Shown piece by piece: positions 13,756 to 41,104 of a stretch of DNA of 54,454 nucleotides (position 1 is the stretch's first letter; the number at the start of each line of letters is the position of its first letter). This stretch comes from Gemmatimonadota bacterium (lineage in GTDB: Bacteria > Gemmatimonadota > Gemmatimonadetes > Gemmatimonadales > GWC2-71-9). The notes beneath the pieces are model-generated. The model worked only from the letters and a program-made list of their open reading frames with translations. It was not told where the DNA came from and did not search any database. The position numbers and the translations under genes were made by a program. The stretch spans positions 1-54,454 of the forward strand of contig JANYLJ010000044.1 of NCBI GenBank assembly GCA_025357945.1, read 5' to 3'.

Positions 13756-14499
13756 CTACGGCGTCGCTGAAGCGCTCACTTCGGTGGTCACCTTCATCGG
13801 GATCGAGTTGCCGCCCATGTTCATGTTGGCCTGCCCGTTTCCGGTCGACCGGCCGGTCTCGCTCAATGCACCTGGCATACCGGTGACGTGGACCACGCCG
13901 GTCATCTGCATTTCAAGCTTCATCGGACCCGCGCCGACGGTCGTCGTTCCCGCCCAGGTCCCATCGGTCTGCATCCGACCGTCGTTGCCAGCCGTTGCCG
14001 TCCAGGTCGTAATTCGGGTCGACGCCGCGCTGCCCTCGGCCAAGGCAGTGTCGCTCTTCGTCGTATCCACCCAGCTCTCGGCCAGCCTGGTTGGCCGCAT
14101 GCCGGCCAGCATCAGTTCAATCCCTGGTACGAGCTGCGCCGACTGGACGCTCACCGGCGTCGCACTGATCGGGGCGTTCGCCTTGCCGTTCACGAGGTAG
14201 ACGTGAAACACTGTGCCCTGGGAGCTCGCGGTCATCGCCGGCGGCATTTGGGTGGTAAACATTCCCGCATCGAACCGGCTCGAGTCAACGACAATGCTGG
14301 CCAGCTTGCCGCCGACCGTATCGGTGATCATCACCGACACAAACCCGGAAACGGTCATCACGATGTCCTGCGCCGGCGCACCCATCGCCGAGAGATCGAG
14401 TTGTGTGCTCGTCTTTGCCACGATCGTGAAGTGCATCGGGGCGCGCACCGGCACCGGGGTCGGTCCGGCGATCAGGTGCAGCGACAGCAGCGTCAGCAT
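13756..14499 (-). CDS. Hypothetical secreted protein downstream of the anti-sigma gene
   Basis: A 247-residue protein of low complexity, rich in Thr, Ser, Ala, Gly and Met, with a short hydrophobic N-terminus (MLTLLSLHLIAGPTPVPV) that may act as a signal peptide. It looks beta-rich with repeated T/V strands and a Met/Asn-rich tail (NGQANMNMGGNSIPMKV). GGAG lies 8 bases before the ATG, and the start is 5 bases after the anti-sigma stop, so it belongs to the sigma/anti-sigma transcript. No family recognised. It could be an exported target or signal partner of that pair, but this is only a positional inference. Confidence 0.7.
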   Translation of the reverse strand: MLTLLSLHLIAGPTPVPVRAPMHFTIVAKTSTQLDLSAMGAPAQDIVMTVSGFVSVMITDTVGGKLASIVVDSSRFDAGMFTTQMPPAMTASSQGTVFHVYLVNGKANAPISATPVSVQSAQLVPGIELMLAGMRPTRLAESWVDTTKSDTALAEGSAASTRITTWTATAGNDGRMQTDGTWAGTTTVGAGPMKLEMQMTGVVHVTGMPGALSETGRSTGNGQANMNMGGNSIPMKVTTEVSASATP

Positions 14500-14504
14500 C
14501 AGCG

Positions 14505-15287
14505 TTACTCCGTTGCGAGTTTGCCGACGAACAGCACCGGCGTTGTCGGGGCGGCCGAGCCGGCCTCAGGTTCCTGCGTGATCGCGGTGGCGGCCACCGC
14601 GCCTGCCGGCATCGGCAGCTCGCGGAGGAGCGCCAGACCCGCCGCATCCGGACGGAACGTAACCGACGGAACCGGCTTGCCGTCCACGATGAACCACACC
14701 TGGTACGCCCGCCCAACCGGCAGGGTGTCAAGCAACCCTGCCGACAGCATCATCGTCCGGCGCGCCCGGTTGACGTAGACCCGGATCACCGGCTTGGCGG
14801 CACCGGTTGCGGCCAGCGTGACCGTCTCCGTGGCCGGATCGGTCAGCTGCGCGATCAGCGAGTCGCGCTGGGCCAGCGATCGGTGACCGTCGTTCACGGC
14901 GAGTTGCGCAGCCGCGGCGTCGTGGCGTGCATCCCGAAGGTCGACGGAGAGCTTGGCCACCAAGGCGAGCGAGGCGGCGAGTGCCGCGCCAAACCAGAGC
15001 GGCGCTCGCGACCGGCTGGCCGAGGCGGGGAACGGGAGTTCCTTGGCGCCGCTCGGCGCCGCCTCGGCGATCCGCGTCATCACGCGACGCTTCAGCTCCG
15101 GCGTTGGCGCCGCCGGTGTGCTCAAGGCAAGCGCGCCGAGTGTGTCGAGTGTTGCCGCCAGTTCCTTGCGCAGGTCGGCGTCGGCGTCCAAGCGGGCCTC
15201 GAACGCGGCGCGCTGTCCGTCGTCGAGTACCCCGAGGGCGTAGTCCTCGACCAGGTCGCGCAGCGGTTCGATCGGTGTGTCGCTCAT
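14505..15287 (-). CDS. Anti-sigma factor, RskA (anti-sigma-K) type
   Basis: A 260-residue single-pass membrane protein that should bind and hold the ECF sigma factor encoded just upstream. The N-terminal cytoplasmic domain starts with the typical LRDLVEDYALGVLDD helix. One membrane helix (APLWFGAALAASLALVAKL) lies near residues 95-113. The outer C-terminal domain has the RskA-type strands VIRVYVNRARRTMMLSAGLL and GRAYQVWFIVDGKPVPSVTF. There is no zinc-binding HxxxCxxC motif, as usual for RskA-like members. The ATGA overlap with the sigma gene ties their synthesis. In known members, release depends on regulated proteolysis; whether that applies here is not visible. Confidence 0.9.
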   Translation of the reverse strand: MSDTPIEPLRDLVEDYALGVLDDGQRAAFEARLDADADLRKELAATLDTLGALALSTPAAPTPELKRRVMTRIAEAAPSGAKELPFPASASRSRAPLWFGAALAASLALVAKLSVDLRDARHDAAAAQLAVNDGHRSLAQRDSLIAQLTDPATETVTLAATGAAKPVIRVYVNRARRTMMLSAGLLDTLPVGRAYQVWFIVDGKPVPSVTFRPDAAGLALLRELPMPAGAVAATAITQEPEAGSAAPTTPVLFVGKLATE

Positions 15288-15889
15288 GCCGTCCCTCCCG
15301 GTCCCAGCGGCGCGAGCAATTCCCGCAAGCGGCGCAAGCCCAGGCGCATCCGGGTTTTCACCGTTCCCAACGGCTCATCGAGGCGTTCGGCGATTTCGCT
15401 CTGCGACAGACCCTCGAAATAGGCGAGTTCAAGCGCCGAACGCTGCGGCGCGGGCAGCGTCGCGAGCGCGGCCTGCACCCGGCGGGAGCGTTCGTCGGCG
15501 AGGAGCGCCGACATTGGCGACGGCGTGGCGGTCCCCATCGCCGGTGGTGACGCGCTGACTTCGGCCTCGGCGGCGTCGTCGAGCCGGTTCCGTCGCCCGC
15601 GCGAACGCAGCAGGTCGAGCGCGCGGCTGCGCGCAATGGTGGCGAGCCACGATGCCACCGATCCGCGCTGGGCCTGGAACCGGGATGCGTCGCGCCAGAC
15701 CTGCGCGAAGGTGTCGACCACGACGTCCTCCGCGTCGGCACGCTCGCGCGTAATGCGCAGGGCGAGGCCGAGGACACCCGCCGCGTATCGATCATACAAC
15801 GTCGACATGGCCGCCTGGTCTCCGCGCATCATTGCCTCGATGAGCGGAGCATCGTCGGGTTGCGTCGGGGCGGCGGCGGTCGGTGCCAT
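15284..15889 (-). CDS. ECF RNA polymerase sigma factor (SigK-like)
   Basis: A 201-residue group 4 sigma factor. Region 2 spans about residues 26-95, with LYDRYAAGVLGLALRI and DAEDVVVDTFAQVWRD (-10 recognition and core binding). An Ala/Pro/Ser linker follows, then region 4 (LPAPQRSALELAYFEGLSQ, EIAERLDEPLGTVKTRMRLG) holds the -35-binding helix-turn-helix. Pairing with a RskA-like anti-sigma factor places it near the SigK group. The start ATG at 15889 has only a weak ribosome site (AGGAG is 16 bases away). A good housekeeping-type promoter lies upstream, so basal expression may not need autoregulation. Likely target genes include the adjacent TonB/DUF4331 module, but this is unproven. Confidence 0.94.
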   Translation of the reverse strand: MAPTAAAPTQPDDAPLIEAMMRGDQAAMSTLYDRYAAGVLGLALRITRERADAEDVVVDTFAQVWRDASRFQAQRGSVASWLATIARSRALDLLRSRGRRNRLDDAAEAEVSASPPAMGTATPSPMSALLADERSRRVQAALATLPAPQRSALELAYFEGLSQSEIAERLDEPLGTVKTRMRLGLRRLRELLAPLGPGGTA

Positions 15890-15980: not shown

Positions 15981-16424
15981 TCACGGCAGCGCCTGCGGAC
16001 CATCGCCACGGAGGAAGACGAGTTGCGCCCGGCGGCCCTGCACCCGGGCGTCGACCACGTTGACCTGGTCGGAAAAGCGTTCCTGCAGCAGGGTGAGCGC
16101 GATATGGCCCCGGCTCAGGCCGCCCACGGCCTTGCCCACCAGCGAAATCCTCAGGCGATCCCCCTCGGGTATCATGTCGGTGGGGTGAAGCGGCACCCGG
16201 ACCGCTCGCGCATCGGTCAGGACCAGGACCCGGTCGAGGTAACTGGCGATGTCGGGCAGTTTCGCCGTGGGCGGAAAGTCGTCGCGGTAAACGTGTATGA
16301 CGGCATGCACAGCGCCGTCCGGCGCGGCATCAAGTTCGACGCGCGCGGCGTGGATCGGATGAAACCGTGATGCGGTGAGCATCAACGCGAGCACGACGAG
16401 CCACCCGGCGCGGCGCGTGTTCAC
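15981..16424 (-). CDS. Secreted DUF6702-like protein
   Basis: A 147-residue exported protein with signal peptide GWLVVLALMLTASRFHPIHA. The mature part resembles the DUF6702 pattern from memory of the family: HP at the mature start, a VHAVIHVYRDDFPP strand with the acidic DD, SYLDRVLVLTD, a middle EGDRLRISLVG, and the closing ERFSDQVNVVDARVQGRRAQ. The match is recognised by eye, not by search. A GTG at 16424 that overlaps the permease stop (GTGA) gives a clean signal peptide; a longer frame to 16496 does not. It ends the five-gene chain and probably works in the periplasm with the HupE-like permease. Function unknown. Confidence 0.7.
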   Translation of the reverse strand: MNTRRAGWLVVLALMLTASRFHPIHAARVELDAAPDGAVHAVIHVYRDDFPPTAKLPDIASYLDRVLVLTDARAVRVPLHPTDMIPEGDRLRISLVGKAVGGLSRGHIALTLLQERFSDQVNVVDARVQGRRAQLVFLRGDGPQALP

Positions 16425-17005
16425 CACGGGGCTCGCTCTGCCGCCATCACGAGCGCGACGCTGGCGGCGGCGAGTGAGGTCATCCGGATGCGCCACACGA
16501 GGGCGTGGTTCGCGTCACCAGCCGGCGCGCGCAGCAGCCGATCGGCGATGGTCAGCATCGAGATCATCACCGTCAACACGAGCGCCTGTCCCAACTCGAT
16601 CCCGATGTTGAAGCTCAGCAACGGCAACACGACGCTGCCGTCGAACAGGTCGCGGAGCGTGGTGGCGAAGCCGGCACCGTGGACGAGGCCGAAGAGTCCC
16701 GCGAGCGCCGGGCGGAGCCAGCCCGCGGGCCGGCTGCGGCGGTCGAACAGGTTCTCCGCACCCGCGAGTATGATGGTGCACGGGATCAGGAACTCGACGA
16801 GGCGGGTGGGAAACCGGATCACATTAAGCGTCGCGAGCGCGAGCGTCAGGCTGTGACCGACCGTGAAGGCACTGACCACGGTCAACCCGTGGCGCCAATC
16901 GCGCGGGCGGTAGCACGCGGCGAGTGCGAGCAGGAAGAGCAGGTGATCGAGCGCGTCGAGTGCGACGATGTGGTGGAACCCCACCCCGATGAATCGCCCG
17001 ATCAT
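16421..17005 (-). CDS. HupE/UreJ-like inner-membrane protein
   Basis: A 194-residue polytopic membrane protein with about six helices. Family marks: GFHHIVALDALDHLLFLLAL at the N-terminus, FTVGHSLTLALAT, FGLVHGAGFATTLRDLF, and LLSFNIGIELGQALVL. The conserved His/Asp residues inside helices resemble the metal-handling residues of HupE/UreJ proteins, some of which import nickel. The ATG at 17005 overlaps the TPR gene by 4 bases; upstream codons to 17125 are shadow. It is the only clear permease of the DUF4331 module, so it is the best candidate for the inner-membrane step. The substrate is not shown by sequence. Confidence 0.85.
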   Translation of the reverse strand: MIGRFIGVGFHHIVALDALDHLLFLLALAACYRPRDWRHGLTVVSAFTVGHSLTLALATLNVIRFPTRLVEFLIPCTIILAGAENLFDRRSRPAGWLRPALAGLFGLVHGAGFATTLRDLFDGSVVLPLLSFNIGIELGQALVLTVMISMLTIADRLLRAPAGDANHALVWRIRMTSLAAASVALVMAAERAPW

Positions 17006-18198
17006 CGTGACACGCTGAGTGCCCTGGCGTGGTCCGCGAGCATCACGTCCTCGGTGCCCCACTTGAGCGCCTCGCGCATCGCCCTGCGGGCTTCCGGGTC
17101 GCGGCCTGCCCGGTGCAGCGCCCACGCGTACTGGTCCCAGCCGTAGACGTCCGGGCGAGTCGCAAGTTCGTCCGTGGCCTGCGCGAGCACGGCGTCAACC
17201 TGTCGGCCGCGGTCGAGTAGTTCCAACCGCCACTGCCGATGCCAGGCACTCGGCGGCGCGGCGGTGATCGCCGTCTCGAAGGCGCGGAACATCCGTTCGG
17301 CGTCCGTCGCGTCGCCGAGGAGCAGGTGCGCGTCACTCGCCAGCGCGAAGGCAAGCGGGTCTTCGCCGGCGTTCATCGCATCGGTGGCGAAACGGAGTGC
17401 CTTCGTGCCGTCGCGCCTTGCCAGCGCGAGCCGTGACAGCGCGAGCAGCACGCGCGGATCGTCGGGTGCAACGTCACGCGCCATCGCGAGGCGGCTCGAC
17501 GCATCGGCAAGCTGGCCCGTGGCCAGCGCCATTTCACCGAGCCGCAGGTCGTACCATGCGATCTGCTCGGCGGGGGTCCCGGCACGGCGATGCGCCTTCT
17601 CACGGGCGCTGATCAGCAGGTTGCGCGCGTGCTCCGAATTGCCCCGCAACGAGGCCCAGCGCGCGACGCGGGCCAGCACCGGCGGCTCGGCCGCATTGCG
17701 ATCGAGGGCAGTGAAGATGGTGTCGGCCTCGAGGTACCGACCCAGTTCAAGGTCGATTTCGCCGAGGAGAGATCGCGGACCGGCGGCGCTCGCGTCGCCC
17801 GCGAGCAGCGACTCGGCTGATGCGCGTGCCTCGAGGAATTTGTGCTGGCCGACCTGTGCCAGGGCGAGTTCGTGCCACGCCTCACCGTTGTGCGCACGGC
17901 GGTTCGCGAGCGAGATGCGCGCTTCCGCCTCCGCGCGGCCGATATCGGCCGGAGTGGCCCGCTCGCGGGCGCGCTGCAGGTACAACGCTGCCAGGTGGAG
18001 ATGGTCGAGGGCGCCCGTGGGGTCGCGGAGCGCGCGTTGCTGGTAGAAGGCAATGTCCGCATCGCGCATGGCGCGCTCGGCGACGATGTCGTAGCGCGGC
18101 GTCGCGGGCTTCGCCGCGACCGACCGCGCCGTGGCGGCGGCGCCCGCAACCAGCGCGAGCGCCGCAACCACGAAGCCGATGGTAGGATACCGGCTCAA
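17002..18198 (-). CDS. Exported tetratricopeptide-repeat protein
   Basis: A 398-residue protein with an N-terminal signal peptide or anchor (TIGFVVAALALVAGAAATAR) followed by helix-turn-helix repeats over most of its length. TPR-like units include HLHLAALYLQRARERATPAD, AWHELALAQVGQHKFLEARA, SLLGEIDLELGRYLEADTIF, LRLGEMALATGQLADASSRL, VLLALSRLALARRDGTKALR and DQYAWALHRAGRDPEARRAM. TPR proteins scaffold protein-protein contacts. It overlaps the DUF4331 C-half gene and the permease gene by 4 bases each. It may join the exported DUF4331 proteins to the membrane parts of the module, which is inference from order. Confidence 0.85.
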   Translation of the reverse strand: MSRYPTIGFVVAALALVAGAAATARSVAAKPATPRYDIVAERAMRDADIAFYQQRALRDPTGALDHLHLAALYLQRARERATPADIGRAEAEARISLANRRAHNGEAWHELALAQVGQHKFLEARASAESLLAGDASAAGPRSLLGEIDLELGRYLEADTIFTALDRNAAEPPVLARVARWASLRGNSEHARNLLISAREKAHRRAGTPAEQIAWYDLRLGEMALATGQLADASSRLAMARDVAPDDPRVLLALSRLALARRDGTKALRFATDAMNAGEDPLAFALASDAHLLLGDATDAERMFRAFETAITAAPPSAWHRQWRLELLDRGRQVDAVLAQATDELATRPDVYGWDQYAWALHRAGRDPEARRAMREALKWGTEDVMLADHARALSVSR

Positions 18199-18728
18199 CG
18201 GTTTGCCGGGGCCACGTACGGGAACGTGGTCAGGAAGGGTGAATCGCTGGCGACGTTATCGGTCGCCAATCCCGGCGAGGTGTTGCTTGGGTCGAGCAGC
18301 GATCCGAAGATCGCCGACAGCCCGGCATCCACCACGTCATCGGACAGCTTGCGGCCGCCCCAGCCGTTCGCCAGCGCCCAGCTCAGCCAGCCGGCCGTGG
18401 ACTGCGCCTTGTCGGTCTGCACGATCAGCATGTCGGGCAACAGGACCGCGGCCAGCGTGTTCTGCACCGTGGCGTTGCGACCGGCGACGGTCGCCACGAA
18501 CGAGATCATTTCAGACTTGATCAGGCTCACGTCCTGCGACGGTCCGGTGCTGCCGTGCGTGGCATGACTGCGCTTGGCCAGGAAGACCTCGCTCACCAGT
18601 GGATTGCCGAGGCGCTGCACCTGGTTGTACATCCGGGTCGGCGTGGTGGTCGTCATCGAATTGTCACTGTTGCACGCCGTAGTGCCGAGCAAGGCGACGG
18701 CGGCGAAGGCGAGGCGGTACCGGCTCAT
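18195..18728 (-). CDS. DUF4331-type C-terminal half, as a separate lipoprotein
   Basis: Starting at the ATG at 18728 (GAGG 10 bases upstream) gives a lipoprotein-type leader ending LLGTTAC, 177 residues in all. An earlier ATG at 18764 forms an ATGA overlap with the previous gene but would push the leader inward. The body resembles the C-terminal half of DUF4331 proteins: RLGNPLVSEVFLAKRSH, then NTLAAVLLPDMLIVQTD and WGGRKLSDDVVDAGLSAIFG. It follows directly the gene for the N-terminal half, so one usual protein appears as two exported products. Function of DUF4331 is unknown. The lipobox is imperfect, so lipidation is uncertain. Confidence 0.75.
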   Translation of the reverse strand: MSRYRLAFAAVALLGTTACNSDNSMTTTTPTRMYNQVQRLGNPLVSEVFLAKRSHATHGSTGPSQDVSLIKSEMISFVATVAGRNATVQNTLAAVLLPDMLIVQTDKAQSTAGWLSWALANGWGGRKLSDDVVDAGLSAIFGSLLDPSNTSPGLATDNVASDSPFLTTFPYVAPANR

Positions 18729-18760
18729 CGAAGCGGTCCTCACGAGTTGATTGGTTGTCA

Positions 18761-19489
18761 TCATCGGGAAATGGTCCCCCAGAGACCGATCTTGGTGTTG
18801 CCGCCGGTCGTGAGCATTGCCGTTGGCAGCTCGATCACGATCGACAGGACGTTGAAGCCGGCGAGGAAGTCGACGGCCTGACCCGGAGCGCGGAACGCGC
18901 TGGCAGTCGGCGTGGACGGCAATGCCGCAAGCGAGCCCGTGACGGGCTTGCGATCCGGCAGGATGCGGAAGAACTGCTCGAGATCGATGAAGAACGGATC
19001 GTCACGCACGCCGGCGTACACCTGGATGCCGCTCGCTGTGCCAAGCACGGTGTTGATCGCGCCCATGACCACGGGGGCATCACTGGCGATCTCGTTCTGC
19101 ATTGCGCCCTTGACCGATGGCACCAACGGGCCGCGCACCTGCACCTGCTGGTTCGCGCCGGTGCCGGTAAACGTGATCTGCAGCACCTTGTCTTCCACCG
19201 CGTCACCGGTGTTGTCGACCTTGATCTGGTAGAGCAGGTTCGGATCGAACGTGACCGTGTTCGCCTGGGCAGGCGTAATCACCGGCCATGAGTTGAGCAC
19301 CAGCGTGATCCGATCGTTGGTGGCGCCTGGGAAGGCGTAGAAGTCCGTCATGTCCTGCGACGGATTGAGCTCGACATCGGCAGTGTCCTGATGGTCGGAA
19401 GCGTGCGCCAAGTGGCGGGCTCCGATGACACCGGCGATGCCGATCGCCACGGCAAGGCCGAGGCGCGCGGTACGGGGAAAGCGGTTCAT
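18761..19489 (-). CDS. DUF4331-type N-terminal half, secreted
   Basis: A 242-residue exported protein with a leader ending GARHLAHA, then the DUF4331 opening SDHQDTADVELNPSQDMTDF with YAFPG. Continuing blocks ITLVLNSWPVI, FDPNLLYQIKVDNTGDAVED and DDPFFIDLEQFFRIL are typical of the family, in which acidic and His residues may bind a ligand. The protein ends after LLTTGGNTKIGLWGTISR, where single-chain family members would continue. The start ATG at 19489 has GGAG 10 bases upstream; an earlier ATG at 19534 would hide the leader. It is the first gene of the five-gene chain and is divergent from the TonB receptor. Confidence 0.85.
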   Translation of the reverse strand: MNRFPRTARLGLAVAIGIAGVIGARHLAHASDHQDTADVELNPSQDMTDFYAFPGATNDRITLVLNSWPVITPAQANTVTFDPNLLYQIKVDNTGDAVEDKVLQITFTGTGANQQVQVRGPLVPSVKGAMQNEIASDAPVVMGAINTVLGTASGIQVYAGVRDDPFFIDLEQFFRILPDRKPVTGSLAALPSTPTASAFRAPGQAVDFLAGFNVLSIVIELPTAMLTTGGNTKIGLWGTISR

Positions 19490-19638
19490 CCTGCGTTGAC
19501 TCCTGGAAAGAGGTGACGGTTGTCCGGCAAGCACGGGGAGTACGCCGCGGATTGGTGGGTGGATTTCGGGGCCGCCCGATACATCCGATTCGGGGAGACG
19601 CGACGTACCAGTTCCGAATCCCTCCTTGGAGCCACGGC
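19490..19638. promoter_or_regulatory. Divergent control region between TonB receptor and DUF4331 chain
   Basis: 149 bases separate the two starts, so promoters for both directions must lie here or within the 5' ends. On the minus strand a GGAACT near 19617-19612 resembles the -35 element of ECF promoters. The matching -10 is not clear, because candidate CGTC or CGAAT elements do not fall at ideal spacing. GGAG at 19627-19630 is the ribosome site for the TonB GTG start. The shared region suggests common control. Confidence 0.4.
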
Positions 19639-21726
19639 GTGCGCGTCCGGTCCGGTTTGCTCTTCAGCTGTCTGGTCGCCGGTGGCGCCATGCCTGCTCG
19701 GGGGCAAGGCGGCGTCCCCGATACCGCCACCGCCCGCAAGCCGTTGCCCCGGCTCGACACCCTGGTGGCCACGGGGCGGGTGAGCGATCTCGTCGGCGTG
19801 GCGGCCTCGCCCAATCAGGGAACCGTCGGCGCCGCCGATCTCGCGCTCCGCCCGCTGCTTCGCCCAGGCGAGGTGGTCGAGAACATCCCCGGCGTGATCG
19901 TCACGCAACACAGCGGCAGCGGGAAGGCCAACCAGTACTTCCTGCGCGGCTTCAACCTGGACCACGGTACCGATCTGGCGATCAGCGTCGACGGGGTGCC
20001 AGTGAACATGACCAGCCATGCCCATGGTCAAGGGTATGCCGACCTGAACTTCCTGATTCCGGAGCTGGTCCAGCGAGTCGATTTCAAGAAGGGGCCTTAC
20101 TACGCCGACGTTGGCGATTTCGGATCAGCCGGTGCGTTCAACGTCCGCTACTTCGACCGGCTTCCCGCCGGGATCCTGCGCGTCGATGGTGGCCAACTCG
20201 GCTATGGCCGCGCCCTCGTCGCCAACAACATCGGCTCCGGCAACCTGTTGTATGCCGGCGAGTTCGAACACAACGACGGCCCGTGGACTCAGGGCGACAA
20301 CGAACGCAAGTACGGTGGGCTCCTTCGGTACGCGCGGGGGACCGAACATGCTGGGTTTACCCTCACGGTTCTCGGCTACCACAACGATTGGCGTTCGACC
20401 GATCAGATCCCGGATCGCGCCGTCGCCGCGGGACTCATCGGTCGTTTCGGTAGCATCGATCCGACCGACGCCGGCCGGAGCGGTCGGTATTCGCTGACGG
20501 CCGATTGGCGCACGCAGGGCGCCAACTCGACCTCCCATGTCCTGGCCTACGGTCTGCACTACGACCTGCACCTGTTCTCGGACTTCACCTACTTTCTCAA
20601 CGATCCCGTGCACGGCGATCAGATCGAGCAGCAGGACCGCCGCTACGTCGTCGGTGCCGCGGCGAGCCACACGCGGCTCGGGACGCTCTTCGGCGCGCCG
20701 ACGCAGACCACCGTGGGGGTCGACGTCCGCCACGACAACATCGACAACGGACTGTACCATTCCGAGGCCCAAACCCGCCTGAGCACAACGACCGTCAATC
20801 GCATCATCGAAACGAATGCGGCGCCATACGTCGAAAACCGGACCTACTGGAACGGGTGGTTTCGCAGCATCGTCGGCCTGCGTGGCGACGCCTTCTGGTT
20901 CGACGTTCGCAACGTGTCGGGCGGCAACTCGGGCAACGTGCAGGCCTCCCTGCTCAGCCCGAAGGTCACCGTCATTTTCGGCCCGTGGGCCAGGACGGAG
21001 TTATACCTCAACGGCGGCTTCGGCTTTCACAGCAACGACGCCCGCGGGGTGACGGCGGCGGTCAATCCGGCGACCGCCCTCGCCCGGAGCAAGGGCGGCG
21101 AGTTGGGCGCGCGCACCAGCCTGATTCCAGGATTGCAGAGTTCCATCTCGTTCTGGCTGCTCGACCTGAATTCCGAACTGGTCTGGTCCGGGGACGATGG
21201 CACCAACACACCGAGTGGACCGACGCGGCGCTATGGCATCGAGTTCGCCAATTTCTACACGCCGGTCAGGTGGCTCACCGTCGACGCCGATTACGCCTGG
21301 TCGCACACGCGCTACACTGATAACGAGCCTGACGGTCGGTACGTTCCGGAAGCGCTGGTCTCGACGTTCGACGGCGGCCTCGCCGTGCATGACCTGGCGG
21401 GACCGCTGCGCCGACTGCGCGGCAGCGTGCGGCTGCGGTATTTCGGGCCGCGGCCGTTGACGCAGGACGGCAGCGTCACTTCGCCGGCGACGTCCCTGGT
21501 CTACACCGACGTGGGATACAACCTGAGCGACACGTGGAATATCGGGGTGTCGGTGTTCAACGTGTTCAACTCCCGCGTCAGTGAAATCGACTACTTCTAC
21601 ACCTCCCGCTTGCCCGGCGAGCCACTGTCCGGCGTGGACGACGTGCACACCCACGCAGCGGATCCACGCTCCGTGCGGGTGTCGATCACGGCGCGACTCG
21701 GCTCCGCCGGCATGAAGCAGCATTAG
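19639..21726 (+). CDS. TonB-dependent outer-membrane receptor
   Basis: A 695-residue outer-membrane receptor that should import a ligand with energy from TonB. The GTG start at 19639 is favoured by GGAG 8 bases upstream and a signal peptide (VRSGLLFSCLVAGGAMPARG); an open frame back to 19513 has no such features. The plug domain shows LRPGEVVENIPGVIVTQHSG, QYFLRGFNLDHGTDLAISVD and the Met/His-bearing VPVNMTSHAHGQGYADLNF. A beta-barrel with many aromatic/Asn-Gly turns follows; the C-terminal strand RSVRVSITARL is not ended by the usual aromatic residue. No CarboxypepD-type N-terminal extension is present. Divergence from the DUF4331/TPR/HupE chain suggests it is the outer-membrane step of that system. 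Confidence 0.92.
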   Translation: MRVRSGLLFSCLVAGGAMPARGQGGVPDTATARKPLPRLDTLVATGRVSDLVGVAASPNQGTVGAADLALRPLLRPGEVVENIPGVIVTQHSGSGKANQYFLRGFNLDHGTDLAISVDGVPVNMTSHAHGQGYADLNFLIPELVQRVDFKKGPYYADVGDFGSAGAFNVRYFDRLPAGILRVDGGQLGYGRALVANNIGSGNLLYAGEFEHNDGPWTQGDNERKYGGLLRYARGTEHAGFTLTVLGYHNDWRSTDQIPDRAVAAGLIGRFGSIDPTDAGRSGRYSLTADWRTQGANSTSHVLAYGLHYDLHLFSDFTYFLNDPVHGDQIEQQDRRYVVGAAASHTRLGTLFGAPTQTTVGVDVRHDNIDNGLYHSEAQTRLSTTTVNRIIETNAAPYVENRTYWNGWFRSIVGLRGDAFWFDVRNVSGGNSGNVQASLLSPKVTVIFGPWARTELYLNGGFGFHSNDARGVTAAVNPATALARSKGGELGARTSLIPGLQSSISFWLLDLNSELVWSGDDGTNTPSGPTRRYGIEFANFYTPVRWLTVDADYAWSHTRYTDNEPDGRYVPEALVSTFDGGLAVHDLAGPLRRLRGSVRLRYFGPRPLTQDGSVTSPATSLVYTDVGYNLSDTWNIGVSVFNVFNSRVSEIDYFYTSRLPGEPLSGVDDVHTHAADPRSVRVSITARLGSAGMKQH

Positions 21727-21796: not shown

Positions 21797-22525
21797 ATGG
21801 ACTCCGCTCTGCCGATCCTCGCCGTCAACAACCTGGTCGTTCAGTACCCATCCTTCACGCTCGGTCCGCTGTCGTGCGCCGTGCATGGTGGCGAGACGGT
21901 GGCCCTCCTCGGCGCCAACGCGGCTGGCAAGACCACCTTTCTTCGCGCGATCACCGGCCGCCTCCGCGAACGCCAGGGCGAAATCCTCATTTCCGGGCGT
22001 GAGCCGCGTGACGCGCCGCCGTCATGGCGCGCAAAAATCGGCTTTGCGGCCGAAAAGCCGCAGGCCGACGGCGCGCTCCGGGTCCGCGAGTGGTTCGCGT
22101 TCCTCGCCGACTGCTATCCCACCTGGGATGCCGCTTACCAGCAGGACCTCACCAGCCGACTCGGCCTCGATGCTGGTGAGCGTATCGCGGCGCTGTCGCG
22201 TGGGACGGCGGTCAAGGCGGCGTACGTCGCGGCCGAGTCGTATCGTCCCGACCTGCTGGTGCTCGACGAACCGACCAACGGCCTCGATCCGGTCGTCCGC
22301 CTCGACTTTCTCGGGTTGCTCGGTGAATGCTTCGCCAACGCGCCCAACCGCGCGCTGATCTTCTCGTCCCACTTGCTCGAGGACGTCGAAGCGCTCTGCG
22401 ATCGCGCGCTGCTGCTGCGCGCGGGACAACTGGTCGACGAGATTCCGGGCGAACGGCTCACCGAGGCTCGCGCGTCGGGGCGACTCACCGAACTGGTCGC
22501 CCACGTGTTGCGGGCGACGCCGTGA
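21797..22525 (+). CDS. ABC transporter ATP-binding protein
   Basis: A 242-residue nucleotide-binding subunit. Walker A is GANAAGKT (residues 39-46), Walker B LLVLDEPTNGLD, the H-loop is in FSSHLLEDVEAL, and the signature reads ALSRGTAVKAA instead of LSGGQ. Variants of this kind occur in small ABC-2-type exporters. It overlaps its permease gene by 4 bases (GTGA), so the two form an exporter pair, probably a homodimeric ATPase with the membrane protein. The substrate is unknown; no regulator gene is adjacent. Confidence 0.93.
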   Translation: MDSALPILAVNNLVVQYPSFTLGPLSCAVHGGETVALLGANAAGKTTFLRAITGRLRERQGEILISGREPRDAPPSWRAKIGFAAEKPQADGALRVREWFAFLADCYPTWDAAYQQDLTSRLGLDAGERIAALSRGTAVKAAYVAAESYRPDLLVLDEPTNGLDPVVRLDFLGLLGECFANAPNRALIFSSHLLEDVEALCDRALLLRAGQLVDEIPGERLTEARASGRLTELVAHVLRATP

Positions 22526-24015
22526 ACTGGCGCGCGTTCCGGGCGCTCTTCCACCGCGAGGTGGCGCGCGGGCGACGGAGCATGCTGGGGTTTGCGGTCA
22601 TGGCACTGGCCGCGATCGTGCTGGCGTTCGTGCTCTCGGACGCGGCATCGGTCGGGCCCGCTATCGTGAGTGTGCTCGCCGGGATGATTCTTGTTTTCAC
22701 GCCCCTTGGCGACCTCCGCTCGGACAAGACCCTCGGTCACCTCGAATTCGACCGGGTGCTGCCGATCGACCACCGGGCGATTGCGACCGCTCGCCTCTTC
22801 GGCGCTGCGGTGCGCACCTCGCCGCTCCTGCTATTGTCGCTTCCGATCATCATCACGGTGGACCGGGGCCACGCGTTCAGTGCCGTGCGGCTGGTGGGCG
22901 CTGTCGCCATCCCGTTGGTCGTCTGGATGCTGTTCACCGCGGTCATGTGGGTGATGATGGCGGTGAACATCCGGTGGAATCTCCGCCGTCTCTGGTGGCT
23001 GCCGATGACCATCGTCATCGGCCCGCAGCTCGTCCTCTCGATGCTGCCGCCCGCCGTGAAGGAAGCCATCAAGACCACGTTCACGCGCGTCGGCGAACCG
23101 ATCGCCGGGTTCTTGTCCGCACCGATCGGGGTCGCGCTCATGATCGTGATCGTGCTCGCAATTCCGCTGGTGCTTTTCTGGCTTGCGGTGTCGGTGTTCG
23201 CCGCCGGGCTGGAACGCTACACCTATGACGCGTCCGCGGCGGTGCCGATGAGCGCCGCACCGCCGAAGCGTGAACTTGCGTCGATCGGACGCGGGCCGAT
23301 GCTCGCCGTGGCGCGCTACTGCATTCGACTCGCCACGGAGCAGTCGCGTCGCCGTCTCATCCTCCTCGCCGTGTTCGTTGCCGCGCTCCTGTTTGGCACT
23401 CACGAGATGAAGGAATACGCGCGGTTGTACGTGCGCATCCTCGCCGCGATGATCCCGGGCGGCATCGCGCTGCAGCTGAGCGTCGCGCGCACGCGGGGCC
23501 ACCTCGAAGGGATCCAGCAACTACCTCATCCGGCGATTACCATCGGCGCGGGTTACCTCCTGGGTATCGCCGTGCTTGCCACGCCGGGAGCTGCCGTGTG
23601 GGTGCTGGCGCGCGCCGTGACCGGTACGCCAGCGACGTCGAGCTATGCCCTGTCGCTCTGGGCATGGATGGTCGGGTGGTCTTGGCTCGCGAGCGTGAGC
23701 GTGGTGTGGCTGACGTCGCGGCGGACGCTGATGATCGCCACGATTCCCGTGCTCGCGGTCGTGACGTGGGCGGGGTATGCCGGCCTGCCGCAATTTCTCG
23801 ACGGCGTCCAGGCCCTGGCGACCGCCTTCGCCGAATTTCGGGCGAACGCCGGCGTCGCAGTCCCGCTGGTATTGGCCGGCGCGATGATGAGTGGCGGTTT
23901 GCCGCTCTTCGCCCGGGGATTGAACGAATTCGAATTTGCGGGGGCGAAGAAGCTGAACTGGTTCAGCCGTTGGCAGGAGCGGGCACGGGGCAGGCGGGTG
24001 CCTGGAGTCGGCTAG
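22522..24015 (+). CDS. ABC transporter permease, ABC-2-like
   Basis: A 497-residue membrane protein with about 12 hydrophobic segments, for example MLGFAVMALAAIVLAFVL, IVSVLAGMILVFTPL, LLLLSLPIIITV, ALMIVIVLAIPLVLFWLAVS and LILLAVFVAALLFG. A GTG start inside the ATPase stop (GTGA) is used; the frame continues farther upstream only as a shadow of the ATPase gene. A cytoplasmic stretch between the two halves contains SAAPPKRELASIGRGPMLAV. The gene ends just before a REP-like element. It forms an export system with the preceding ATPase. Confidence 0.85.
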   Translation: MNWRAFRALFHREVARGRRSMLGFAVMALAAIVLAFVLSDAASVGPAIVSVLAGMILVFTPLGDLRSDKTLGHLEFDRVLPIDHRAIATARLFGAAVRTSPLLLLSLPIIITVDRGHAFSAVRLVGAVAIPLVVWMLFTAVMWVMMAVNIRWNLRRLWWLPMTIVIGPQLVLSMLPPAVKEAIKTTFTRVGEPIAGFLSAPIGVALMIVIVLAIPLVLFWLAVSVFAAGLERYTYDASAAVPMSAAPPKRELASIGRGPMLAVARYCIRLATEQSRRRLILLAVFVAALLFGTHEMKEYARLYVRILAAMIPGGIALQLSVARTRGHLEGIQQLPHPAITIGAGYLLGIAVLATPGAAVWVLARAVTGTPATSSYALSLWAWMVGWSWLASVSVVWLTSRRTLMIATIPVLAVVTWAGYAGLPQFLDGVQALATAFAEFRANAGVAVPLVLAGAMMSGGLPLFARGLNEFEFAGAKKLNWFSRWQERARGRRVPGVG

Positions 24016-33269: not shown

Positions 33270-36050
33270 CTAGAAGCGCAATTCCATGCCGAACCGGATC
33301 AGGCGCGGCGGGCCAAACACGAAGAGCGGCCAGGTGAAGTCGCGTGCGGCGGCAAGGTACAGCGGCATCAGTTCCGTCGTGCCAGAGATGATACCGTCAC
33401 CGTTCAGGTCGGCGGCTCGTCGGTACCGCGGTGACTCATAAGGTATCGGGTTGGGATTGGTGTTGTACGCGGTCTGCGCCAGGCGGAGCACCGTGGCGCT
33501 GTCGGCGTTCGCCGTGCCGGTGTCACGGCGGACGCTGGTCTGGTTCGCCGTGTTCAGGATGTTCCGCGCGTCGATGTAGATCCCGCCGTTCAGCTTGCCG
33601 AAACGCACCGGCCGCCGCAGCAGGGCATCGAACGTGTGTTGGCTGGGAAGGCGGCTGCCGTTGATCTCGCCAATGAGCGTATCGCCCACGGCACTGGTGC
33701 GGGTGTACGGCAGCCCGCTCCAGTAGTGCCCCACGGCAGAGATTTCCAGCCCGGCGAATGGCCGGACGCCGAAGAGCTTGATGCCGCCCGTGGGATCGAT
33801 CTGGCCAGTCATCACCGCGGTGACCGCGATGCGACGGTCGTAGTCCAACGGGAACTGGAAGCGCGACGCGGCGATGGTGTCGTGCGTGTTCGGGTCGATG
33901 TGGGTCTGGTTGTAGATATTGAACGCGTTGCTGACCGTCGCCGTCGCTTGTTGCACCACCCCCGACACCTTGATGCCCCAGTTCTTCGTCAGTTCCTGCT
34001 CGAAGATCAACTCGGCTCCGGTGACGGTACCGATGTCGGCGTTGATGAACTTCGACGAATCCGGGTTGACGTTCAGTGGTACCGATGCGACCAGACCATC
34101 GAGGTGCTTCTCGTAGATGTTGACCTTGACCGTGTTGCCGGTGGCGAGCCGCACCCGCACGCTCAGCTCGTACTGCATCGCCGATTCGAACCCGAGGTTG
34201 GGATTGCCCCGCCGGAACCGCCCGGTGCGCGTGGTGTCATCGAACGCTGCGTCCACCAGGTATTGCAGGTCGGGCGGCTGGGAGAACTTGCCCATGCTGG
34301 CTACGAACGTGGCACCCGCAACCATCGTCGAGACCGCCACCCGAGGATTGAAAGACCTGTGCGACTTGAGCGTGGTGTTGGTCGCGTCCGCCCCACCGGG
34401 AGAGAACCCGTCGAGCCGCATCCCGGCGGTGAAGCCGAGATCCTTCACGCGCGCCTGCGCCTCCACATAGGCACCAGAAAGCGACGGTGAGAAGTGTGAC
34501 GCGGTCGGCGGCGGCACGGTGCCCGCGACGGGCTGGTACGCCAGCACCCGCTGGAACGTCTTCACCGTCTGTGCTGCGTATACCCCGCCGAAATGCACGT
34601 CGAGATAGCGGCCGAGTCCCAGGGTGGCATCCAGCTGGGTCCGCAACTCCGAGAACTCGTTCCACGCGAGTTCGCCGGAGCCCGCGCCGGCCTTGAAGAA
34701 CGCCGGAACGCCCCACGGCGTGTTGCTGGCCAGCTGCGGTGTGCCGAAATCCGGCAATGCTGCCCGCGTGGCGAGGGTGTCCTGCGCCTGAGCGATGGTC
34801 TCGTCGAGGATGTGCAGCCGCTTGGCCGTGAACGCACCGAACTTGTAATCCGGCGCAGCCACCGTGCCGCGCACAAACTGCTTGTCGAAATAGCCAACGC
34901 GCAGGTCGCCGAACAGTGGCAGCTCGCTCTCAGCCGGCGGTAGCAACTGCAGATGTCCGGTCAGCAGCTTGCCATCGGTGCGGCTTCCTGGCGCGGAATT
35001 CTGGTCGTACTTGTAGACCGGATCGTACAGGTAGGCCTGCTGCGTCGTGGCGAGTCCGAAGAACCGGCCGACGGCGCGCGCTGTGAATGGCACCGTCAAC
35101 TTGGCGCCCACGGTCCACGTTTCAGCACTGCTGTGGGGCAGCGGATACGGCGTGGTGTAGCGCGGATCGAGCGGGTTGGTCGGCGCCGGTGCGGTCGAAG
35201 GATCCGCGTCCAGCTGTCCATTCAGGTCGAGAATGGCGACGGCCTTCACTTTTTTGCCGATCGGCCCGTCCGCCTGCAGGACGAGGCGATCGATGCCGTG
35301 GTCTGCGGCACCCGTGAGCGGGCGATCATTTTCGTACGCGACGCGACCGCGCCACGCGTCGCCGCCATCGCGAGTCGTTACATCGACCACGCCCGAGATG
35401 GCCTGGCCGTAGCGGGCCGAAAAACCGTTGGTGACCAGCGATGCCGACGTGATCAGGTCGGGCGGAATCTGGAGCGACGACCTGCCGTTGGTGGATGCGT
35501 CTAGCTGATTCTTGATCCCGAAGCCGTCCAGCACGAACGCCTGCTGTCCCGGCCGTCCACCACGATAACTCTCGCCGACCACGCCGGCCTGCAGCGCGAT
35601 TGCCTCCTGTAGACTCGTCACCGGCAGGCGTCGCAGCTGGTCGGCAGTGATCCGCTGTTCAGTAGCGGTGGCGAGCGGATCGAGTACCGGGTCCTGGACG
35701 CCCACCGCACGGAGTTCGGCCAGCTGTACGGCGAACGGGGCCAGTCGGACGTCGGCGCGAGTGATCTCGCCGCCGCGGATCTCGACCCCGGCACGCCGCT
35801 CCGGGCGATATCCCGGCCGGGTCACCGCCAGTTGATGCAGCCCCGCCGGAATGCCGCGAATCCGATACTCACCGAGGGTGTCGGTCGTGGTGAAGTAGCG
35901 GCCGCCGTCGACGCGTACTTCCACGCCGCGCACCGGCCCGTCGTTCGTGGCGTCGATCACCCGACCGGTGAGCCCGCCGACTCCCTGGGCCGCAAGCGGA
36001 ACGAACGCCACAACGCTGGTGACCAGCGCGAGTCGAAGGCTGCCTGTCAG
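33270..36050 (-). CDS. TonB-dependent receptor with carboxypeptidase-regulatory-like domain
   Basis: A 926-residue outer-membrane receptor. The mature N-terminus is a CarboxypepD_reg-like domain (GGLTGRVIDATNDGPVRGVE, then GRYFTTTDTLGEYRIRGIPA). The plug follows (ITADQLRRLPVTSLQEAIAL, QQAFVLDGFG) and then a long beta-barrel ending RLIRFGMELRF with the aromatic C-terminus needed for insertion. The start is assigned to a CTG at 36050: it overlaps the lipoprotein stop (CTGA) and yields a signal peptide (TGSLRLALVTSVVAFVPLAA). The GTG at 36011 would cut that leader in half. Synthesis is thus coupled to the lipoprotein, a likely partner. The ligand is unknown. Confidence 0.92.
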   Translation of the reverse strand: MTGSLRLALVTSVVAFVPLAAQGVGGLTGRVIDATNDGPVRGVEVRVDGGRYFTTTDTLGEYRIRGIPAGLHQLAVTRPGYRPERRAGVEIRGGEITRADVRLAPFAVQLAELRAVGVQDPVLDPLATATEQRITADQLRRLPVTSLQEAIALQAGVVGESYRGGRPGQQAFVLDGFGIKNQLDASTNGRSSLQIPPDLITSASLVTNGFSARYGQAISGVVDVTTRDGGDAWRGRVAYENDRPLTGAADHGIDRLVLQADGPIGKKVKAVAILDLNGQLDADPSTAPAPTNPLDPRYTTPYPLPHSSAETWTVGAKLTVPFTARAVGRFFGLATTQQAYLYDPVYKYDQNSAPGSRTDGKLLTGHLQLLPPAESELPLFGDLRVGYFDKQFVRGTVAAPDYKFGAFTAKRLHILDETIAQAQDTLATRAALPDFGTPQLASNTPWGVPAFFKAGAGSGELAWNEFSELRTQLDATLGLGRYLDVHFGGVYAAQTVKTFQRVLAYQPVAGTVPPPTASHFSPSLSGAYVEAQARVKDLGFTAGMRLDGFSPGGADATNTTLKSHRSFNPRVAVSTMVAGATFVASMGKFSQPPDLQYLVDAAFDDTTRTGRFRRGNPNLGFESAMQYELSVRVRLATGNTVKVNIYEKHLDGLVASVPLNVNPDSSKFINADIGTVTGAELIFEQELTKNWGIKVSGVVQQATATVSNAFNIYNQTHIDPNTHDTIAASRFQFPLDYDRRIAVTAVMTGQIDPTGGIKLFGVRPFAGLEISAVGHYWSGLPYTRTSAVGDTLIGEINGSRLPSQHTFDALLRRPVRFGKLNGGIYIDARNILNTANQTSVRRDTGTANADSATVLRLAQTAYNTNPNPIPYESPRYRRAADLNGDGIISGTTELMPLYLAAARDFTWPLFVFGPPRLIRFGMELRF

Positions 36051-38443: not shown

Positions 38444-40141
38444 TCATTGCCGTTGAAATTCCGGGCCGCCGATCGCGAGCCCCACTGCCAGTGCCCGCGC
38501 CATGCGAGGATCGGGCACGTCCGCCAGTTCCTTCAGGATCGTTTCGCGCGTCCGCTGCGTCATCGCGCCACCAAGCACCGCCTTGTCCACGGCGGCGATC
38601 AGCGCGGCGTGGTCATCGGTGACGGCAACAACGCGGTCGAGGTCGACCACGGCGCCCGGCATCTTTCCACCGGCGAGTTGCACCGCGAAGTTCATCCGCG
38701 CCAGCAGCGCGCCGCTGTTGACCCAGTCCTGCTGCCGTTCGCCGTATCCGTCGGGAGTCGCGTGCTGGAAGAGCGGTTCGCCGAGTTGCCCGACGCGCTG
38801 GGCGAGGCGCGGCGTCGAGTCCGGCGTACCGTTCACGGCCCGCAGCGCACTGACGACGAACTCGAGCGGCGTCTTGACCTTGCTCTGCACGTTGACGGAC
38901 GCCCAGAAGTCTGGCGAATGGAGGATCGCCCGCACGACCTCACGGATATCGCCACCGCTCTTCTGCCAGGCATGCACCGCGTCGTCGATGCAGCCATCGG
39001 GCGGCACGTCGTTGACGAATCGCGCGCAGAGCTGCGCGCTCACGTGATGCATCGTCGCCGGCTCGTTCGCCAGCATTTTCAACAGGCGCATCCCTTCATC
39101 CTCGCCATGCCCGCCACTGAACTGCTGGCCGAGCACCATCTTGGACTGGTTGTCGTGCACTGCGTCGCGGAACGTGTACGCTGCGTCTTTACGGTCGATG
39201 CCCCAGCCGGTGAGGATCCGCGCGACAGCAATGACGTCCTGCTGGCTGTACCCGCCGTCGACGCCGAGGGTGTGCAGTTCCATCAGTTCGCGGGCGTAAT
39301 TCTCGTTCAAGCCGCGGGGGGCGCGTTGCTTCGCCGCCAGTTGGGTTGGCGTCATCGGGTCGGCGCCGTTCTGCGGGAAGACACCGGGCCGGGGATTGGG
39401 GAAGATGCCGCGGCCCCGGCCGATCGCCGGGAACGGGCGCACGCCGCCGTGGCCGCGTTGCATCGCGGCGAGCCGCTGGTCCGAACCGTCGGCGACGCTC
39501 TCGGCGTTGTCGAGGTAGAAGAGCATCGCCGGGCTCTTGGCCGTCGCCACTAACAGGTCCTCGAACCGGCCGAGGCTGTGGCCGCGGATGGTCCGGTCGA
39601 GATAGTCGGCGAAGTAGGGGCGGTCCTGGCCCTTGTTGATGAATACGTTGAAGTGATTCGTCCAGAAATCGACCAGGATCTCATCCAACTGGCGGTCAGA
39701 TTGGACGGCCCGCACCAGCGTGACCGTTTGCAGCTGCGCGATCAGGGCCTGGAGTGAGCGGCGGCCACCCTGCTGCTCGGTGCGGATTTCGTCGAGCAGG
39801 CGCTGGCGGGCGGCCGAGTCGCCGATCGCCTGTGCCTGCTGCACCTTGGCCTGATTCTTCTGCTGGAGATCCTGCATTTCCAACCGCGACACGTGGAGCA
39901 CGTCGAAGCCGCGCTCCAGGTCGGCAAGTGCCGGGTCGTGGACGTCGCTGAACCCCAGCTGTCGATCCACCCATTTCATGACCCCGTCGTGGGCGATTGC
40001 TTCGATTTCCCCCGGGGTGGCGCCGTAGGCCAACCGGCTGAGCACGTGACGGGCAGAGTCGATGGCAGTCATCGGGGCTTGTGCCGGTAGTGGAGCAGCC
40101 AGCCGGAGTCCAAGGCCGAGGACCGGAATGATGCATTTCAT
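38444..40141 (-). CDS. DUF1800 family exported protein
   Basis: A 565-residue protein with a leader ending RLAAPLPAQA. The ATG at 40141 is used because AGGGA lies 8 bases upstream. DUF1800 blocks: AIDSARHVLSRLAYGATPGE, DEILVDFWTNHFNVF, PRGLNENYARELMELHTLGV, DVIAVARILTGWG, and AILHSPDFW with VKTPLEFVVSALRAVNG. A coiled stretch (LQQKNQAKVQQAQAIGDSAA) and a Gly/Pro/Arg-rich loop (GRGRGIFPNPRPGVFPQNG) are insertions. It heads the six-gene unit; an AT-richer 150-base region upstream likely holds its promoter. Function unknown. Confidence 0.92.
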   Translation of the reverse strand: MKCIIPVLGLGLRLAAPLPAQAPMTAIDSARHVLSRLAYGATPGEIEAIAHDGVMKWVDRQLGFSDVHDPALADLERGFDVLHVSRLEMQDLQQKNQAKVQQAQAIGDSAARQRLLDEIRTEQQGGRRSLQALIAQLQTVTLVRAVQSDRQLDEILVDFWTNHFNVFINKGQDRPYFADYLDRTIRGHSLGRFEDLLVATAKSPAMLFYLDNAESVADGSDQRLAAMQRGHGGVRPFPAIGRGRGIFPNPRPGVFPQNGADPMTPTQLAAKQRAPRGLNENYARELMELHTLGVDGGYSQQDVIAVARILTGWGIDRKDAAYTFRDAVHDNQSKMVLGQQFSGGHGEDEGMRLLKMLANEPATMHHVSAQLCARFVNDVPPDGCIDDAVHAWQKSGGDIREVVRAILHSPDFWASVNVQSKVKTPLEFVVSALRAVNGTPDSTPRLAQRVGQLGEPLFQHATPDGYGERQQDWVNSGALLARMNFAVQLAGGKMPGAVVDLDRVVAVTDDHAALIAAVDKAVLGGAMTQRTRETILKELADVPDPRMARALAVGLAIGGPEFQRQ

Positions 40142-40245
40142 GGTCATGTCCCTTAGACGCTGGGTTGGCGCAGGGGTTAAGGCCGCGAGTACGCAAACGG
40201 CGACCCCGGCAGTATTCTTGTCCCGTATCCGTAAACCGTTATTGG

Positions 40246-40262
40246 ACGGCCAGATCGGCCGT
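40246..40262. promoter_or_regulatory. Short perfect inverted repeat in a divergent promoter region
   Basis: ACGGCC and GGCCGT flank the 5-base loop AGATC, followed by TTTTC. It lies between the DUF1800 gene and the divergent lipoprotein gene in a stretch with lower G+C. It could be an operator half-site pair for a dimeric repressor, or a weak hairpin. No regulator gene is adjacent. Confidence 0.35.
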
Positions 40263-40294
40263 TTTCGGGTTCCCACCGTCGGGAGACCGCAGCT

Positions 40295-41104
40295 TTGATC
40301 GTACCACGCCGCCGCGATACCCGTGCGCTCTGGCCGACGGCCTGCCTGGTGGCTGGCCTGATCGGCTGCGTACCGCTCGGCCTGAACCTCCCCTCCGACG
40401 ACGGCCCGCCCGCACCCGACGGGGGCCGGATCAAGTCCGCCGTTGGCTGGCTGACGACGCGCCCGGGAGAAACGACCAGTCGTGGCCCCGACGGTCAGAT
40501 CGCGATCCAGGTCGTTCACTTCGCCGGTCGGACGTTCCTGCAACAGGTGCGGCACTACAAGGTGGGCGACGCGGCATACGGCGATTCGGTGCTGCTCGAC
40601 CGGACGTCACTCCGACCGTTCGAAACCTGGCGGTGGACACCCCGGGGCACCTACATCGCTCGCTACAACCACCGGGTGGTGGAGCGAGCGTTCCATCCCG
40701 TCCGAGGCGCGGCGATACGGTCGAGCGAAACGATGGACGTCGAGCCGTACTCGGCCCTTGGCGTGGAGCTGCTCGTCGCGTCGTTGCCGCTCGGGCAGGG
40801 GTATCACGGCGTGCTGCCGGTGGCGGTCGACACCGCGCTGCGTGGCTGGAGTTGGCTGCGGTTCGAGGTCCAGGCCGAGATGACGATGCAGGAGCGCCCG
40901 GACCAGAAGGCGATCGAGACGTGGATCGTCGATTACGACAACGGCGTCAAGTCCACCGGGCTCGAACGGACCCGACTCTATATCGCCATCGATGGTCGAT
41001 CGGTTCGCAAGATGCAGCACCTGGGACCGGACAACGAGGTCCTGGGCACGCTGCGGCGCCTGCTCCTGGCGGTGCCGGCAGCGCGCACGAGAGTCGGTGC
41101 GTAG
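40295..41104 (+). CDS. Hypothetical lipoprotein
   Basis: A 269-residue exported lipoprotein; the leader LWPTACLVAGLIGC gives a clear lipobox (Cys25). The start is an assigned TTG at 40295 giving a basic N-region (PRRRDTRALW); no ATG in frame precedes the leader. The mature part is beta-rich (GQIAIQVVHFAGRTFLQQVR, HYKVGDAAYGDSVLLDRTSL, RYNHRVVERAFHPV) with one acidic region and ends in a basic tail. It recalls DUF3108-type barrels but the match is weak. It is divergent from the DUF1800 unit and followed by a terminator. Function unknown. Confidence 0.7.
   Translation: MIVPRRRDTRALWPTACLVAGLIGCVPLGLNLPSDDGPPAPDGGRIKSAVGWLTTRPGETTSRGPDGQIAIQVVHFAGRTFLQQVRHYKVGDAAYGDSVLLDRTSLRPFETWRWTPRGTYIARYNHRVVERAFHPVRGAAIRSSETMDVEPYSALGVELLVASLPLGQGYHGVLPVAVDTALRGWSWLRFEVQAEMTMQERPDQKAIETWIVDYDNGVKSTGLERTRLYIAIDGRSVRKMQHLGPDNEVLGTLRRLLLAVPAARTRVGA

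Follow-up and report, generated by a model that had tools for sequence, protein, structure and literature searches.

The window analysed here is the whole 54,454-nucleotide stretch of contig JANYLJ010000044.1, from the genome of a soil-type bacterium of the Gemmatimonadota (3.0 Mb, 99.8% complete). It carries a gene for a TonB-dependent outer-membrane receptor (TBDT), which diverges from an operon encoding two DUF4331 proteins, a TPR protein, a HupE/UreJ-type permease, and a DUF6702 protein. A preliminary description, made from the sequence alone, had read these six genes (15981-21726) as a candidate importer. Open reading frames (ORFs) and profile matches confirmed its gene set, domains, gene overlaps, and 149-base divergent region. 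The extent that it gave holds for the genes listed but ends before an extracytoplasmic function (ECF) sigma factor and an RskA-type anti-sigma factor; the description overlooked both this pair and its promoters. The sigma/anti-sigma pair is part of the system, because a SigK-like promoter precedes DUF4331 in most loci as well as both divergent genes of the window. The features are as follows:

19639-21726, plus strand: TonB-dependent outer-membrane receptor (Plug domain PF07715; GTG start at 19639)
19583-19607, plus strand: predicted SigK-like ECF promoter of the receptor gene (ATCC-N17-CGTA)
19541-19564, minus strand: predicted SigK-like ECF promoter of the DUF4331 operon (ATCC-N16-CGTA)
18761-19489, minus strand: first (N-terminal) half of DUF4331, exported (PF14224, 133.7 bits against a cut-off of 27; ATG start at 19489)
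18195-18764, minus strand: second (C-terminal) half of DUF4331, a separate lipoprotein-like protein (PF14224, 61.5 bits against a cut-off of 27)
17002-18198, minus strand: TPR protein, exported or membrane-anchored, a presumed scaffold (Pfam TPR matches below threshold)
16421-17005, minus strand: HupE_UreJ_2 permease lacking a periplasmic domain of its own (PF13795, 7e-42, 143 bits against 24.5; ATG start at 17005)
15981-16427, minus strand: DUF6702 periplasmic protein, a putative metal binder and apparently a detached anglerase-type domain (PF20420, 6e-7, 30 bits against 24)
15284-15889, minus strand: ECF sigma factor, SigK-like (Sigma70_r2/r4)
14505-15287, minus strand: RskA-type anti-sigma factor (RskA_C)

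The minus-strand junctions are 4-base overlaps of the ATGA/TTGA type, and that between HupE and DUF6702 spans 4-7 bases if DUF6702 starts at GTG 16424/16427. The divergent gap measures 149 bases, given starts at ATG 19489 and GTG 19639.

PF14224 is present in 43 of 298 genomes of the phylum (24 of 119 genera), nearly always as two adjacent genes. The second half in the window covers profile positions 248-420, has its own lipoprotein-like signal, and retains an invariant His43 and D118/D119 region. A frameshift or pseudogene origin was rejected, as the two-gene form is kept in nearly all matches in the phylum; the split noted in the preliminary description is thus a conserved arrangement and not a local frameshift. 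Synteny was assessed in 36 non-redundant Gemmatimonadota loci flanked by no less than 6 kb on the downstream side and 3 kb on the upstream side. The first DUF4331 half has the second half nearby in 35 loci, a TPR gene in 34, DUF6702 in 20, HupE in 19, an ECF gene in 15, an RskA gene in 14, and a TonB receptor gene in 13, while HupE and DUF6702 co-occur in 18. These genes are neighbours in most DUF4331-bearing relatives, and since the arrangement recurs across the phylum it is far beyond chance. HupE was rejected as a marker specific to the cluster, being present in 179 of the 298 genomes. In five related loci, homologues of queC and queE (deazaguanine pathway, named from inspection of the sequence) lie directly upstream of the DUF4331 operon, an adjacency that is possibly mere inheritance.

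Fifty plasmid records matched the receptor at E < 1e-30. Among ten contexts read from annotated records at the top of that list, which are not a random sample, seven contain nickel loci (nikR, NiCoT, or hydrogenase genes), and the receptors share 40-47% identity with that of the window. The receptor of Cupriavidus necator pHG1 is 44.6% identical and lies 4.4 kb from a HoxN/NixA permease gene. The other nickel contexts are those of Afipia pHCG3 (hyp genes, nikR), Methylomagnum (nikR), Paraburkholderia (nikR, NiCoT), Bradyrhizobium (NiCoT, hydrogenase genes), Comamonadaceae (nikR), and Polymorphobacter (nikR); the remaining three, from Methylorubrum, Indioceanicola, and Methylobacterium, show no such link. 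The plug residues H91, D108, H109, D112, and H129, as well as H464, are invariant in all 20 receptors compared, including a copy from Adhaeribacter.

The DUF6702 sequence found no relative among solved structures, whereas a structure search with its model (pLDDT 93.9, pTM 0.87) succeeded. The model matches RbAng-1a, the copper-bound Ang-1 domain of a HupE/UreJ-2 protein (9gce; Z 11.4, 2.6 Å, 117 residues), zinc-bound ZrgA (Z 11.7), and PA4063 (Z ~10), with unrelated structures at 6.5 or below. Its predicted mature N-terminus is HPIH (codons from 16361). In 12 of 12 aligned relatives, in which rows were cut at the HPIH-type motif, H1, H4, D28, D98, and N101 are invariant, and H-x-x-H occurs in nearly all of 33 loci. 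A Pseudomonas homologue binds nickel with a Kd of 5.6 pM, cobalt with 3.6 nM, and copper with 3.3 nM, and Ang domains fused to HupE bind copper and nickel and are proposed to feed the permease (PMC12537917). HupE/NicO-like proteins encoded without DUF6702 usually have a fused periplasmic domain, with histidine as the first residue after the predicted signal peptide. The DUF6702 protein of the window appears to be the detached form of this domain. The HupE protein keeps H12, D20, H21, H51, E71, H109, and E137 (in 27-28 of 28 sequences), of which H12, D20, H21, H51, and H109 are present in all 28.

The first DUF4331 half has a predicted mature N-terminus of Ser-Asp-His-Gln-Asp (codons from 19399), which resembles an amino-terminal copper- and nickel-binding (ATCUN) motif. 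All 56 motif-bearing Gemmatimonadota sequences have alanine (48), glycine (7), or serine (1) followed by [S/A]-D-H-[QKR]-[DQ]; eight further sequences from the phylum fall outside the search pattern, and several of these visibly contain S-D-H, A-D-H, or S-S-H. Exported full-length relatives from Actinobacteria, Proteobacteria, and Bacteroidota mostly have A-S-S-H-x-[DE]-A-P, with looser fits in Marinovum (GASHREAP) and Adhaeribacter (ESSSHREAP), while short cytosolic relatives start with Met-Ser-[HN]-His. Histidine at position 3 of a presumed free N-terminus is therefore reached by two independent routes, as the same position is conserved behind the predicted signal cleavage site and behind the initiator methionine. 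Judged from sequence, this N-terminus would have the geometry of an ATCUN-like copper/nickel site. The AlphaFold2 model of the N-terminal half is middling (pLDDT 76, with the first 12 residues below 50), and its structure search returned immunoglobulin-like matches only (Z < 6), so that no fold relative could be named; a sequence search against solved structures found no relative of DUF4331 either. The statement in the preliminary description that the DUF proteins have no known function still holds for DUF4331, for which no published function was found and whose name is not mentioned in the literature searched, including the anglerase study (PMC12537917). It no longer holds for DUF6702, which has one from that same work.

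Regulation of the cluster is predicted to be of the SigK type. Because the sigma factor scores 151.9 bits with the SigK model, below the equivalence cut-off of 226, we call it SigK-like and not SigK. A two-box motif was discovered upstream of ECF genes, in a set that included the upstream region of DUF4331 in the window, and was then counted everywhere. ATCC-N15-17-CGTA precedes the first DUF4331 half in 56 of 64 loci (200 shuffles: mean 0.37, maximum 3) and the ECF gene in 14 of 22 (mean 0.15, maximum 2). The shuffles preserved nothing beyond base composition, and related genomes do not count as independent; the better control is the contrast with the internal genes, namely the second DUF4331 half, TPR, HupE, and DUF6702, which have the motif in 2 of 160 cases combined. 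The whole window has eight matches on both strands, and within the 149-base gap one motif faces each divergent gene. Adhaeribacter likewise has the motif on both sides of its receptor/DUF4331 gap, and in Pseudoalteromonas a variant (TGCATCC...CGTT) precedes both the ECF and DUF4331 genes. The -35 element of the promoter resembles the SigK type. NikR_C has no match in the host genome, and in place of NikR control the receptor gene has a predicted ECF-type promoter. Neither the window nor five related loci contain a riboswitch or other known RNA control element at gathering score.

Outside the Gemmatimonadota, 20 DUF4331 contexts were surveyed in plasmid records, where DUF4331 is a single protein. 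It adjoins HupE/UreJ in Comamonadaceae, Marinobacter, two Lichenicola plasmids, and Rhizobium leguminosarum, a histidine-rich NicO-like "nickel transporter" in two Streptomyces, a NiCoT permease in Rhizobium, and a histidine-rich TauE/NicO-like permease in Nostoc. Nickel/cobalt-type permeases as neighbours of DUF4331 thus recur in Proteobacteria, Actinobacteria, and Cyanobacteria. In Adhaeribacter (Bacteroidota), a TonB receptor of the same family as in the window diverges from DUF4331-TPR. One Streptomyces plasmid (L117:5878-12886) has two DUF4331 genes flanking a TPR gene and a histidine-rich nickel transporter gene; each DUF4331 copy terminates in a hydrophobic stretch with a basic tail, and after them comes a sortase gene, which suggests that these proteins may be anchored to the cell wall. 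Four plasmid-borne copies of DUF4331 from Rhodobacterales are flanked by an A24 prepilin peptidase gene on one side and type II secretion genes on the other; DUF4331 may be secreted there or have another role.

We interpret the cluster as a system that spans the envelope and takes up a first-row transition metal, nickel being the likeliest and cobalt possible, at a probability of about 0.68. Both transport and the identity of the metal are what we infer from the gene context and the conserved residues. The TonB receptor would carry a nickel chelate over the outer membrane, as the nickel loci of its relatives suggest. The DUF4331 halves, which correspond to a single homologous protein elsewhere, would together accept the metal in the periplasm or at the membrane through the conserved N-terminus, and the TPR protein would scaffold the periplasmic parts. 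DUF6702, with its fold and retained residues, would pass the ion on to HupE for import through this permease. A signal through RskA would release the SigK-like sigma factor that it holds, and the latter would activate both the operon and the receptor gene by binding at the paired divergent promoters, thereby taking the place held by NikR in Proteobacteria. The dedicated importer proposed in the preliminary description, with metal as its suggested cargo, is supported by the recurrence of the genes as neighbours, the putative metal-binding residues of HupE, and the nickel loci around the homologues of the receptor. We also put forward, tentatively, that DUF4331 proteins are metallochaperones or metal acceptors of a new class, which act through a free N-terminal Ser-X-His exposed by signal peptidase or by removal of the initiator methionine, and that in several phyla they and TPR proteins possibly connect TonB receptors with HupE/NicO/NiCoT permeases, controlled by a metal-sensing sigma factor of the SigK type.

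Several observations weigh against nickel uptake. The published Ang domains bound copper better than nickel (PMC12537917). Neither urease, NiFe hydrogenase, CobN, CbiM, LarA, nor NikR was found in the host genome, nearly complete as it is, and hence no known user of nickel or cobalt was found; strong NiFe hydrogenase matches occur in only 3 of the 43 DUF4331-bearing genomes. Nickel for urease or hydrogenase is accordingly unsupported as an explanation, as neither enzyme was found. A second, unrelated type of TonB receptor holds the same place in other Gemmatimonadota clusters. DUF4331 may serve more than one system, as neither a permease, a receptor, nor an ECF gene lies near it in 8 of the 36 Gemmatimonadota loci (which consist of DUF4331 with or without TPR) or in several loci from Rhodobacterales. 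About half of the 20 plasmid contexts have no permease. Lastly, ATCUN sites bind Cu(II) strongly and usually prefer it.

This last property would suit the same architecture with copper (or zinc) as its cargo instead of nickel or cobalt, as would the binding of zinc by ZrgA and PA4063, the fold neighbours of DUF6702, and the missing nickel and cobalt enzymes. We nevertheless consider such a cargo unlikely, since the receptor family is tied to NikR, NiCoT, and hydrogenase loci, the permeases that adjoin DUF4331 are of nickel/cobalt types, and the sole DUF6702 protein assayed binds nickel ~600-fold tighter than copper (PMC12537917). Less probable still is that the system captures metal for sequestration or detoxification, responding through an envelope-stress sigma factor to a surplus of metal and not to need. 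The NicO family includes exporters, control is by ECF/RskA in place of a metal repressor, and the genome offers no evident use for imported nickel or cobalt. A HupE/UreJ-like protein and TonB receptors of Sphingobium also rise in high nickel (PMC5557971). However, a TonB receptor and HupE are parts typical of importers, the relatives of the receptor are tied to NikR and hydrogenase synthesis, and genes for P-type ATPase or resistance-nodulation-division efflux do not recur in the neighbourhoods. That DUF4331 and TPR have some other envelope role, such as adhesion, secretion, or matrix formation, with metal genes as frequent but unrelated neighbours, is very improbable: the loci reduced to DUF4331 and TPR, the type II secretion genes in Rhodobacterales, and the generic immunoglobulin-like fold would be compatible with it, but DUF4331 occurs with nickel/cobalt-type permeases in three other phyla and with at least three permease types, and its N-terminal S-X-H is kept in secreted and cytosolic forms alike.

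Some further genes of the window lie outside the system. An ATP-binding cassette (ABC) ATPase and a membrane protein are encoded after the receptor (21797-24015, plus strand). ATPase homologues diverge from DUF4331 in three close relatives, and the neighbourhood is thus partly inherited; this ABC transporter and the ORF at 13756-14499 were dropped as parts of the cluster, as few relatives have them. A 2993-residue ORF (41633-50614, plus strand) with GH94 domains at its end and glucoamylase-like and weak DUF3131 matches encodes a cyclic beta-glucan synthase (NdvB-type). On the minus strand, 33270-36011 encodes another TonB-type outer-membrane protein, which has a carboxypeptidase-regulatory-like domain, and 38444-40555 encodes a DUF1800 protein.

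Several components resemble known systems. With the anglerase Ang-1/Ang-2-HupE/UreJ-2 proteins and the DUF6702 sequesterase (PMC12537917), the cluster shares a HupE_UreJ_2 permease served by an N-terminal-histidine beta-sandwich domain of the same fold; in the window, however, this domain is a separate protein, accompanied by the split DUF4331, TPR protein, TonB receptor, and ECF/RskA pair, which are not described there. The receptor is related to receptors of Proteobacteria encoded beside nikR, HoxN-type permease, and hyp/hydrogenase genes, and its family is probably that of the NikR-regulated nickel receptors of the Bll6948/Daro_3944 type, listed as known nickel TBDTs (PMC11247825). It differs from them in the predicted ECF control, with NikR missing from the genome, and in having HupE, not NiCoT, as its partner permease. 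The nickel permease HupE of R. leguminosarum, as relayed in PMC12537917 (Brito 2010), belongs to the same superfamily and shares the conserved His/Asp motif, although the permease in the window is of the PF13795 type and not a classical hydrogenase HupE, and its genome has no hydrogenase. SigK is among the best NCBIfam matches for the sigma factor, whose partner is RskA, as in the SigK/RskA pairs of groups ECF18/ECF19 (PMC7509140), but its predicted target is a metal-uptake operon, whereas SigK targets the mpt70/mpt83 genes. The "undescribed import pathway" of the preliminary description hence fits the ECF control and the part made up of DUF4331 and TPR, but not nickel receptors and HupE permeases as such. 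The novelty is in the combination, DUF4331, and ECF control, the receptor and permease classes being already known.

If the proposed uptake system is correct, it would give DUF4331 its first function and fill the periplasmic gap between nickel TonB receptors and permeases of the HupE type. It would also place DUF6702 in a pathway, and sigma factors of the SigK/RskA type would gain a metal-uptake regulon.

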